DNA of 64,000 bases from Alphaproteobacteria bacterium (GTDB lineage: Bacteria > Pseudomonadota > Alphaproteobacteria > Rhodobacterales > Rhodobacteraceae): NCBI GenBank assembly GCA_030432315.1, contig JAUIHM010000002.1, positions 1 through 64,000 of the forward strand. Direction: 5' to 3'. The notes below the pieces were generated by a model that worked only from the letters and a program-made list of their open reading frames with translations, made no database searches and was not told the DNA's origin. This document shows, in pieces, positions 28,495 to 51,918 of the stretch. The position numbers and the translations under genes are program-made. The first letter of the stretch is position 1. Every line of letters starts with the position of its first letter.

Positions 28495-28998
28495 TCAAAC
28501 GTCGTCGGGCATGAACCCCAGATCGGTCGGGTCCGGTGTCATGCCAAAACCGGTCAGGATCGCATGCGCCTGACCCCGGTGATGGGTCTGATGGTTGAAG
28601 AAATGCGTCACCAGAATCCATTTCGGTTTCGTCAGGTCGCGTCTGCTCCCGCCCGAATACCAGGTCAGGTCGCCCGCAAGATCGGATTCGGTCAGCCGCG
28701 CCGCCCAGTCGGAAATCCGGCTATCGGCCTCAAGGCGTGCCGCCTTCAGTCCTTCCCAGTCGAGCCGGGTTTCGCCGTCCGCCGGTCCGGTCTTTGGCTT
28801 CTCCCAACCGTCAAACCGCGCCATCCAGACCGAGTCGCCCCAGAGAACATGCGCGAGCGTGCCATGCAGCGACCGGAAGAACGCCCCCCGATCCTCCCGC
28901 CGCTGCGCATCCGTCAGCCGGTCGGCTTCGCGGTACAGCGAACGGTTCTGCCAGGCATTGTAGCGCGCCATCAGACGCGGATGGTCCGGGTCGATCAT
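28495..28998 (-). CDS. DinB family protein
   Basis: LMARYNAWQNRSLYREADRLTDAQRREDRGAFFRSLHGTLAHVLWGDSVWMARF...THFFNHQTHHRGQAHAILT. Confidence 0.93.
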   Translation of the reverse strand: MIDPDHPRLMARYNAWQNRSLYREADRLTDAQRREDRGAFFRSLHGTLAHVLWGDSVWMARFDGWEKPKTGPADGETRLDWEGLKAARLEADSRISDWAARLTESDLAGDLTWYSGGSRRDLTKPKWILVTHFFNHQTHHRGQAHAILTGFGMTPDPTDLGFMPDDV

Positions 28999-29096: not shown

Positions 29097-29185
29097 GTTA
29101 ACCTTTTCGCGGCGCGCGGGAATCGTCGGTATCGAATGGGTATCGTCCGGGTATCGAAAGGGTATCCGGCCGCCGCATGGTTAAC
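29097..29185. repeat. Dispersed intergenic element, copy A: four 11-bp GGGTATC repeats bounded by inverted GTTAACC/GGTTAAC
   Basis: GTTAACC(29097-29103)...CGGTATCGAAT|GGGTATCGTCC|GGGTATCGAAA|GGGTATCCGGC(29127-29170)...GGTTAAC(29179-29185). Matches copy B at 51766-51855. Confidence 0.85.
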
Positions 29186-29188
29186 GGC

Positions 29189-31249
29189 TCAGCCCGGACT
29201 GTTGATAATGTCGAGAAAAGCCGCGCCAAACCGGTCGGCCTTCTGCGCCCCGACCCCGGGAATCCGCTCCAGCGCCCCTAGATCCTGTGGTCGCATTTCG
29301 GCAATCCGTCTGAGTGTCACGGCGTTGCAGGACAGCGGTTTGCCGGTCCCCGACGATCCCTTCGCCAGTTCCTTTTGCGCTGCCTCCAGCCGGTCGAACA
29401 CCGACGCGGCTTCCCGTCCCGCGATTTTGCGCCGCGCCGGGTGCGGCAGTTCCGCCGTGTCATCCCCCTGAATTGCCTCAAGAAACTGTCGCCCATAGCG
29501 CTCCAGCTTTACCGCTCCAACCCCGGAGATCCCCCGCATCTCGTCGAGACTTGCAGGCCGTTTCACCGCCATTTCCATCAGCGTCCGGTCGTTGAAAATG
29601 ATATAGCCCGGCACGTTCGCCGCCTCCGCCAGCCCCCGCCGCACCGCCTTCAGCGCCGCAAGAAGCCCCTCATCCTCCTCCGGCACCAGCGCCACCACCC
29701 GGGCCTGCGACGGTTTCGCCCTCTGAATGGTATCTTCCCGCAACATAAGGGGTCTTTCACCCCGCAGCACCGGCCGCGCCGATTCGTTCAACCTCAACGC
29801 CCCATGCCGCGACGGGTCCGGCCGCAACAGATCATGCCCCATCAGCTGCAGAAAAATCCCCTGCCATTCCTGCTTCGACCGCTCCTTGCCGACGCCAAAC
29901 GTCGGCAACCGGTCATGCCCCCGCTGCCTGACACGCTCATTCGCATCCCCGCGCAGCACGGAAATGAGATGCTCCGTGCCAAAATACTCTCCGGTCCGCA
30001 GCACCGCCGAAAACGCCTTCTGCGCCGCCTCCGTCCCGTCGAACAGCTTCGGCGGATTGCGGCACAGATCGCAGTTGCCGCAGGGCTCGGTGTGGGAATC
30101 GCCAAAGTAATTCAACAGCACATGCCGCCGACACTCCGCCGCCTCGGCCAGACCGAGCAGGGCATTCAACCGCCGGTGATCGGCCTCCTTGCGGTCCATC
30201 GGTGCTGCGCCCTCGTCGATCTGCGAGCGCCGCAGCCTGATGTCTTCCGCGCCGTACAGCGTCAGCGTCGCCGCCGGTGCCCCGTCGCGCCCGGCCCGCC
30301 CGATCTCCTGGTAATACGCCTCCACCGATTTCGACAGGTCCGCATGGGCGACAAACCGGATGTCCGGCTTGTCCACTCCCATGCCGAACGCAATCGTCGC
30401 ACAGACGATCAGCCCGTCCTCGCGCTGGAACCGTGCCTCGGCCCGCTGCCGCTCGGAGCTTTCAAGCCCGGCGTGATAGGCGATCGCGTTGTGACCGGAG
30501 TCATTCAGCCCCTTGGCCAGGGTTTCGGTCTTCGCCCGGCTGGCGCAATAGACGATACCGGACAAACCTTTGTGTTGATTTGCAAATTCCAGGATCTGCT
30601 CTCGCGGTTTGTTTTTCGGCCGGAACGAAATGAACAGGTTGGGCCGGTCGAATCCGTGCAGGAACACCTCCGGCTTTCGCTCCGGAAACAGCTGCTCAAT
30701 GATCTGCGCCCGCGTCTCCGCATCGGCCGTCGCCGTCAGTGCAACTGTCTGTACCGGCCCGATGTCGCGCCGCAATCCGCCGATCCGCAGGTAATCCGGC
30801 CGGAAATCATGTCCCCACTGACTGACACAATGTGCCTCGTCCACCGCCAGCAGACTGACGTTCGAATTGCGCAACAGTGACGTCGTATACCCCGAGCCGA
30901 GCCGTTCCGGCGCCATGTAGAGAAGCTTCAGCGTTCCCGCCCGAAGCTTGTGCAGGATCGCGTCGACCTCGTCGCCATCGGTCTGCGAGGTCAGTGCGCC
31001 CGCCTCGACGCCGTTTTCCCTCAAGGCGCGCACCTGGTCCCGCATCAGCGCGATCAGCGGCGAAATCACCACCGTCACCCCGTCCCGGGTCAGGGCAGGC
31101 AATTGATAACACAGGGACTTTCCCCCTCCGGTCGGCATGATCGCCAGCACGTCTCGGCCGGCCTCTACTGACGCAACAATCGCCTCCTGACCCGGTCTGA
31201 AATCGGAAAAACCGAAGATCCGACTGAGATAGTCCCGTGCCTGTTTCAT
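29189..31249 (-). CDS. recQ: ATP-dependent DNA helicase RecQ
   Basis: FRPGQEAIVASVEAGRDVLAIMPTGGGKSLCYQLPA, DEAHCVSQWGHDFRPDYLRIG, RQC zinc Cys and HRDC region; start trimmed to MKQARDYLSRIFG. Confidence 0.96.
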   Translation of the reverse strand: MKQARDYLSRIFGFSDFRPGQEAIVASVEAGRDVLAIMPTGGGKSLCYQLPALTRDGVTVVISPLIALMRDQVRALRENGVEAGALTSQTDGDEVDAILHKLRAGTLKLLYMAPERLGSGYTTSLLRNSNVSLLAVDEAHCVSQWGHDFRPDYLRIGGLRRDIGPVQTVALTATADAETRAQIIEQLFPERKPEVFLHGFDRPNLFISFRPKNKPREQILEFANQHKGLSGIVYCASRAKTETLAKGLNDSGHNAIAYHAGLESSERQRAEARFQREDGLIVCATIAFGMGVDKPDIRFVAHADLSKSVEAYYQEIGRAGRDGAPAATLTLYGAEDIRLRRSQIDEGAAPMDRKEADHRRLNALLGLAEAAECRRHVLLNYFGDSHTEPCGNCDLCRNPPKLFDGTEAAQKAFSAVLRTGEYFGTEHLISVLRGDANERVRQRGHDRLPTFGVGKERSKQEWQGIFLQLMGHDLLRPDPSRHGALRLNESARPVLRGERPLMLREDTIQRAKPSQARVVALVPEEDEGLLAALKAVRRGLAEAANVPGYIIFNDRTLMEMAVKRPASLDEMRGISGVGAVKLERYGRQFLEAIQGDDTAELPHPARRKIAGREAASVFDRLEAAQKELAKGSSGTGKPLSCNAVTLRRIAEMRPQDLGALERIPGVGAQKADRFGAAFLDIINSPG

Positions 31250-51765: not shown

Positions 51766-51855
51766 GTTAACCTTTGCGCGCATGCGCCAGAAACGTCGGT
51801 ATCGGTAGGGTATCAAAAGGGTACCGGTTGGGTATCCGGTCGCCGCATGGTTAAT
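51766..51855. repeat. Dispersed intergenic element, copy B: four 11-bp GGGTATC repeats bounded by inverted GTTAACC/GGTTAAT
   Basis: GTTAACC(51766-51772)...CGGTATCGGTA|GGGTATCAAAA|GGGTACCGGTT|GGGTATCCGGT(51797-51840)CGCCGCATGGTTAAT. Right arm nearly identical to copy A. Confidence 0.85.
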
Positions 51856-51880: not shown

Positions 51881-51918
51881 AACGAAAAGACCCCGCCGAA
51901 CGGTGTCGGCGGGGTCTT
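51881..51918 (-). terminator. Rho-independent terminator downstream of the Bax inhibitor-1 gene
   Basis: On minus strand: AAGACCCCGCCGA-CACCGT-TCGGCGGGGTCTT followed by TTCGTTTT. Confidence 0.88.

Follow-up and report, generated by a model that had tools for sequence, protein, structure and literature searches.

As a rule, repeats scattered through bacterial genomes are palindromic and owe their spread to transposases, and most polar signals of the chromosome are octamers; those of the KOPS/AIMS type also lie within genes. In plasmid iterons and the 11-bp repeats of ParR/parC systems, direct repeats at helical spacing load an oligomer. REP sequences are palindromic, carry a GT(A/G)G head and have a cognate Y1 transposase (PMC2817692). 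The tandem sites of the OmpR/PhoB family are composed of 7-bp direct repeats separated by 4-bp spacers, with tri- and tetra-sites also being bound (PMC4832192), and CtrA recognizes TTAA-N7-TTAAC, with the half-site TTAACCAT (PMC3692519). KOPS are short and polar, and point from the origin towards the terminus (PMC2680272; PMC5993296). The rut criteria of RhoTermPredict demand cytosines every 11-13 nt and an excess of C over G (PMC6407284).

The window analysed here (the whole stretch of 64,000 nucleotides) contains two copies, A and B, of an intergenic element that resembles each of these systems in part (Table 1). With REPs and BIMEs it shares short, dispersed, intergenic and lineage-specific repeats in tens to hundreds per genome, but it is made of direct repeats of fixed polarity, with neither a conserved hairpin nor compensatory changes. 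Tandem sites of the OmpR/PhoB (Pho box) type show the same head-to-tail 7+4 spacing and may likewise comprise four motifs, whereas the known ones are promoter sites and the element has exactly four units in about 87 copies, mostly behind genes and bracketed by GTTAAC. Seven PF00486 domains were detected in the genome of the window, none of them linked to elements, and other oligomerising DNA binders could occupy the array as well. An orientation tied to the replication strand recalls KOPS/AIMS; these, however, are octamers and far more numerous, while the element forms 44-bp intergenic arrays of lineage-specific sequence. In many copies the right arm reads GTTAACCAT on the minus strand and thus contains the CtrA half-site, yet the left arms are mostly GTTAACCTTT, other copies carry TTAACCACG or TTAACCGGT, and congeners are devoid of elements. 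The full CtrA site is absent, since the arms are single TTAA sites 82-92 bp apart without 11-bp TTAA pairs. Iterons and parC have direct repeats at helical spacing in common with the element, which is, by contrast, dispersed in the chromosome and gave no BLAST match to plasmids or phages, leaving a plasmid or phage origin unsupported. A relation to the MraZ box, which consists of GGG-type direct repeats upstream of mraZ, was rejected because no GGGTA array is present at that position. A literature search for the repeat retrieved no description.

Table 1. Positions of the two element copies and neighbouring features in the window.
Feature	Position	Strand	Basis or remark
Copy A, whole element	29097-29185	+	sequence read directly
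Copy A, left arm GTTAACC	29097..29103	+	left TTAA at -30/-31 from core in most copies
Copy A, left gap	29104..29126	+	conserved only as CCTTT...GAAA-CG composition; without conserved hairpin
Copy A, unit 1 CGGTATCGAAT	29127..29137	+	sequence and alignment
Copy A, unit 2 GGGTATCGTCC	29138..29148	+	sequence and alignment
Copy A, unit 3 GGGTATCGAAA	29149..29159	+	sequence and alignment
Copy A, unit 4 GGGTATCCGGC	29160..29170	+	sequence and alignment
Copy A, CGCCGC motif 3' of array	29171..29176	+	GCC in 83-84/86 copies
Copy A, right arm GGTTAAC	29179..29185	+	3 bp from recQ stop, which begins at 29189
Copy B, whole element	51766-51855	+	second family member in window
Copy B, left arm GTTAACC	51766..51772	+	sequence
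Copy B, four 11-bp units CGGTATCGGTA GGGTATCAAAA GGGTACCGGTT GGGTATCCGGT	51797..51840	+	sequence and register
Copy B, CGCCGC motif and right arm GGTTAAT	51841..51855	+	sequence
recQ	29189..31249	-	Pfam DEAD, Helicase_C, RQC, HRDC, RecQ_Zn_bind; stop adjoins right end of copy A; start position from home-made gene caller
DinB-family gene, left of copy A	28495..28998	-	Pfam DinB and home-made gene caller
Intrinsic terminator of minus-strand gene, between gene and copy B	51886..51918 (approximate)	-	sequence; home-made detector

The layout of copy A given in the earlier note (GTTAACC, a gap, four 11-bp units in register and an inverted arm) matched the sequence, as did its end 3 bp short of recQ. 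The claim that the copy fills the gap between the DinB-family gene and recQ applies to the recQ side only, as about 98 bp remain on the DinB side. For the genome-wide survey, a sequence-only profile made from 21 copies was searched against the genome of the window, a draft of 3.37 Mb in 189 contigs that is 86.6% complete and whose replichores could not be ordered. At a threshold of E ≤ 1e-8, 87 copies were obtained, A and B among them, which corresponds to a density of one in about 39 kb; besides these, just two further matches, weak or fragmentary, were seen. Within the window, the two-unit pattern (up to two mismatches) gave six matches against 0.29 expected, a number reached in no shuffle. 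The dispersed family that no gene annotation explains is confirmed. The earlier note would have given up the idea if only the two copies existed, or if a known family or homologous flanks accounted for the conservation; apart from the copy number, Rfam gave no match in the window, and in congeners the flanks of the recQ locus are not homologous, the sequence behind recQ being completely different in all congeners examined. Two contig ends (C104:64423 and C138:45193) carry one element with identical flanks and probably represent an assembly repeat.

Copies were fetched with about 2 kb on each side, and 86 of them were aligned. All 86 hold four units in 11-bp register and follow a strict scheme of 7-bp direct repeat plus 4-bp spacer (86/86). 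Units 2-4 read GGGTAYS followed by four bases, with GGGTA in 83-86 of the 86 copies at every position, and unit 1 mostly starts with CGGTA or AGGTA. The spacers are drawn from a small vocabulary (GAAA, GGTA, GGTT, ATCC, GGAA and a few others). Most copies are flanked by GTTAAC sites, whose TTAA positions are discrete and correlated between left and right: -30/-31 and +51 to +53 in class I (52 copies), -26 to -29 and +62 or more in class II (18 copies), and -15 and +66/67 in class III (three copies), with two copies bearing both a class I and a class III pair. The distance from TTAA to TTAA is 82-84 bp in nearly all class I, 81-82 bp in class III and 90-92 bp in class II copies. Both arms are missing in about six copies. 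Two armless, core-only copies, L266:2001-2043 (C58) and L272:2001-2048 (C188), share the spacer series GGTA-GAAA-GGTA and lie directly behind recF and a lutC-like gene.

The earlier note had preferred a protein-binding array to an RNA hairpin because the unit is not self-complementary. This reason is valid for DNA; in RNA, GGUAUC can pair with itself through G.U, but the columns show no covariation. RNAalifold proposed 18 pairs with zero compensatory changes, and a covariation test of all column pairs returned only effects of arm position and alternating spacer words; the apparent covariation of left and right arm was discarded, as it reflects the correlated arm positions. When the halves of the left gap were swapped between class I copies, they folded as well as the true combinations, so that no conserved hairpin is indicated, and a pairing advantage of matched halves was absent on either strand in this class. 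The folding energy of the plus-strand core is mildly low, which is attributed to the G.U pairing of GGUAUC with itself. The preference as such was upheld by the fixed four-unit 11-bp register and the lack of pairing covariation, with binding itself remaining an inference.

The orientation of the copies follows the strand asymmetry of the chromosome. In element orientation, GC skew over the 1.5-kb flanks is negative for 82 of 86 copies, the GGGTATC strand being the C-rich one, so that the bias runs against the composition of this G-rich unit. The polarity is independent of the direction of the right-hand gene (49/50 copies one way, 31/33 the other way). Skew is mostly uniform over tens of kilobases along whole contigs, with the copies following it, and where its sign changes (C176, C184, C130 and C183) the orientation of the copies changes with it. 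Once gene direction is corrected for, 31 of 36 copies agree in a 20-kb context (P 1e-5). The exceptions comprise an armless copy, a contig-end duplicate, one copy at near-zero skew and two beside a switch point. A KOPS-like motif, GGGNAGGG, was dismissed, as its 91:30 bias is of the kind that G-skew alone gives. Several skew switches of the origin type (minus to plus) are found in C176, C184, C130, C183 and at the end of C85, and no clear terminus-type switch was recognized among the contigs read. At C176:1-4200 (L253), where GC skew changes sign, two plus copies together with two minus copies enclose two genes, one ccrM-like (DNA methyltransferase) and one rnhB-like.

We interpret the element as an oriented four-site protein-binding array that is kept by selection and serves as a polar chromosomal or gene-end signal, and assign this reading a probability of roughly 0.42. 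Copy number, register, geometry, position, polarity, absence of covariation and relatives with other units are observations, while proteins, fork direction, function and coevolution are inferred. Four head-to-tail half-sites on double-stranded DNA (7-bp GGGTAYS plus 4-bp spacer, 11-bp step) would take up four subunits of a single sequence-specific DNA-binding protein, always in the same direction. Bracketing of the array would come from a second protein, probably a dimer, for which the two GTTAAC palindromes (spaced about 82-84 or 90-92 bp) may serve as binding sites. Such a directional complex would sit in intergenic DNA, preferably just behind the stop of a gene reading towards the right end, and keep a fixed polarity relative to chromosomal strand asymmetry. 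It may thereby form a polar boundary or signal whose right end would be met first by replication forks and co-directional transcription. Possible roles are insulation or termination of transcription where genes end, or guidance of a protein that handles the chromosome. The repeat unit is envisaged to evolve together with its binding protein, such that each lineage would acquire its own unit while the GTTAAC architecture persists. No binding protein was identified, and no element was found at an obvious regulator gene.

The age of the family bears on both this array and its main rival. Pairwise identity in the free columns has a mean of 0.44 and a maximum of 0.79, close to the column-shuffled control; because these columns are almost as diverged as shuffled copies, the family must be old and without a young burst, and near-identical young copies were not detected. 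Its age, together with the invariant core and the near absence of decayed copies (87 good matches, two weak or fragmentary), speaks for purifying selection on individual copies, although this is an inference and not a proof. The rival that we take most seriously, even if we consider it rather unlikely, is a REP- or MITE-like mobile repeat, old and non-autonomous, that would have spread through single-strand-DNA (lagging-strand) transposition at TTAA sites. It predicts dispersed intergenic copies, a 3' bias arising from survival and an orientation tied to replication, and the copies are indeed dispersed, intergenic and lineage-specific, with TTAA at both ends. Their link to strand asymmetry is expected for targeting of the lagging-strand template (PMC6006769), and several genes have their ends inside an arm (at distances of 5 on the right and 25 on the left), as would be seen if copies had inserted there. 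Mobility fails to account, however, for the lack of young and almost all decayed copies or of a conserved hairpin, and no match to Y1_Tnp (PF01797) was obtained in the assembly, a result that is not final given its 86.6% completeness. Nor do fixed ends explain why the class III core is shifted by 15 bp at an about equal TTAA distance; because the core shifts while this distance is kept, two sites at a set spacing are a better interpretation of the arms than the ends of a transposon.

With genes called by a home-made codon-usage script and terminators by a home-made detector, both of them simple, 85 of 86 copies were classified as intergenic, and the sole exception starts at the recF stop codon. 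A facing 3' end lies within 25 nt of the arm on the right side in 34/49 cases compared with 11/41 on the left (Fisher P 1e-4). When intergenic length is taken into account, convergent gaps show an enrichment of copies and divergent ones a depletion, but the difference is not significant when scaled to the number of gaps. A 3'-UTR RNA element could underlie this arrangement if the C-rich strand (GATACCC every 11 nt) were transcribed behind the stop and served in Rho utilisation or as a different kind of RNA-protein terminator. Stops lie next to the right end, and for about half of the copies the 3' position and the cytosine spacing are in keeping with the RhoTermPredict rut criteria (PMC6407284). 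Moreover, in 42 genes with an element directly behind the stop, no intrinsic terminator intervenes between stop and element and only three follow the element, as opposed to 23 of 115 at other 3' ends. We nevertheless judge this explanation improbable: Rho does not require the invariant G, A and T letters, 19 copies lie between two genes that both read the G-rich strand, the strand polarity is independent of gene direction, and Rho is general whereas the element sequence is lineage-specific. The 12 of 86 copies in divergent gaps count against it as well and make for a poor fit to any pure 3'-end role. Copies in minus orientation at a greater distance from the stop, copy B being one, are mostly preceded by an intrinsic terminator in four of five cases.

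Guidance of segregation through KOPS/AIMS-like sites, with the house-keeping translocase FtsK as their reader, would conform to the fixed polarity along the chromosome (82/86; 31/36), but is very unlikely, as 44-bp arrays at about one per 39 kb replace 8-bp motifs, the G-rich unit occupies the C-rich strand, and FtsK is conserved while congeners have no motif. FtsK, CtrA or Rho alone are unlikely readers because their targets would be common to congeners. Chance, an assembly artefact or simple tandem-repeat slippage, for which the single 11-bp arrays with GGTATC in other phyla might speak, is refuted by 87 copies with variable spacers and fixed length and by the pattern read backwards (one match against 243 for the true one).

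The proposal to look for the literal unit in related Rhodobacteraceae led to nothing: no copies of the GGGTATC family were found in ten congeners or in 396 other Rhodobacteraceae (about one per genus), because the unit sequence is lineage-specific. An order-wide search yielded four weak matches, at least three of which have an 11-bp array, built from another unit, between TTAA arms; weak single matches from a class-wide search were set aside as near chance level. In 200 kb each of two other Rhodobacteraceae genera, G829 contained three elements with the unit GGTATGGGTYN and G880 two with GGTATCGCRTC. The two TTAA-bracketed elements in each of these genomes score on period 11 only, and arrays of period 8, 10, 13, 14, 16 or 17 were absent from the DNA examined. 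One locus in G843 has TGTGCATNNNN units and a shared GCGCCGCA-GGGTTAA end, and one in G989 is related to the G829 type, whereas the congeners G005, G004, G006 and G010 had no such elements in 60-280 kb. The architecture is therefore wider than the unit sequence and patchy in distribution, with the other-genus families resting on five copies and two single loci. In those five copies the GC-skew polarity is of opposite sign, so that a polarity sign general across genera has not been shown.

An undescribed class of polar chromosomal elements in Rhodobacteraceae may tentatively be proposed, consisting of GTTAAC brackets around an 11-bp array whose unit is uniform per genome and replaced between genera. 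A fast-evolving DNA-binding protein and its roughly 40-90 sites would then evolve jointly, in the manner of an arms race or as part of a new system for chromosome organisation or gene ends. The family is neither a transposase-spread palindrome nor an octamer but an oriented four-site array, apparently kept intact copy by copy, that follows chromosomal strand asymmetry, lies at gene ends and has its site sequence swapped between genera. If confirmed, it would be a new kind of chromosome-wide site system.

Most matches of the three-unit pattern in other phyla proved to be simple 11-bp tandem repeats and were excluded. A Caldilineaceae MAG (JAJDTL01) harbours at least 13 dispersed repeats with three GGGTATC units that follow one another at 11-bp intervals within a longer conserved sequence (L082, L085, L092, L097, L102, L103, L106, L109, L116, L128, L131, L137 and L139); these were not counted, since they are longer dispersed repeats with homologous flanks and without TTAA arms. 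Bacteroidota possess 11-bp GGTATC arrays in several copies with variable spacers, located in Pedobacter cryoconitis (L071, L079, L091), Algoriphagus (L083, L133, L140) and Chitinophaga (L072, L090), those of Pedobacter being arranged as inverted arrays. The congener G004 carries a different, palindrome-rich dispersed repeat of about 90 bp (L298:16421-16540, with relatives in L289, L290, L294 and L295), present in six copies in 220 kb.
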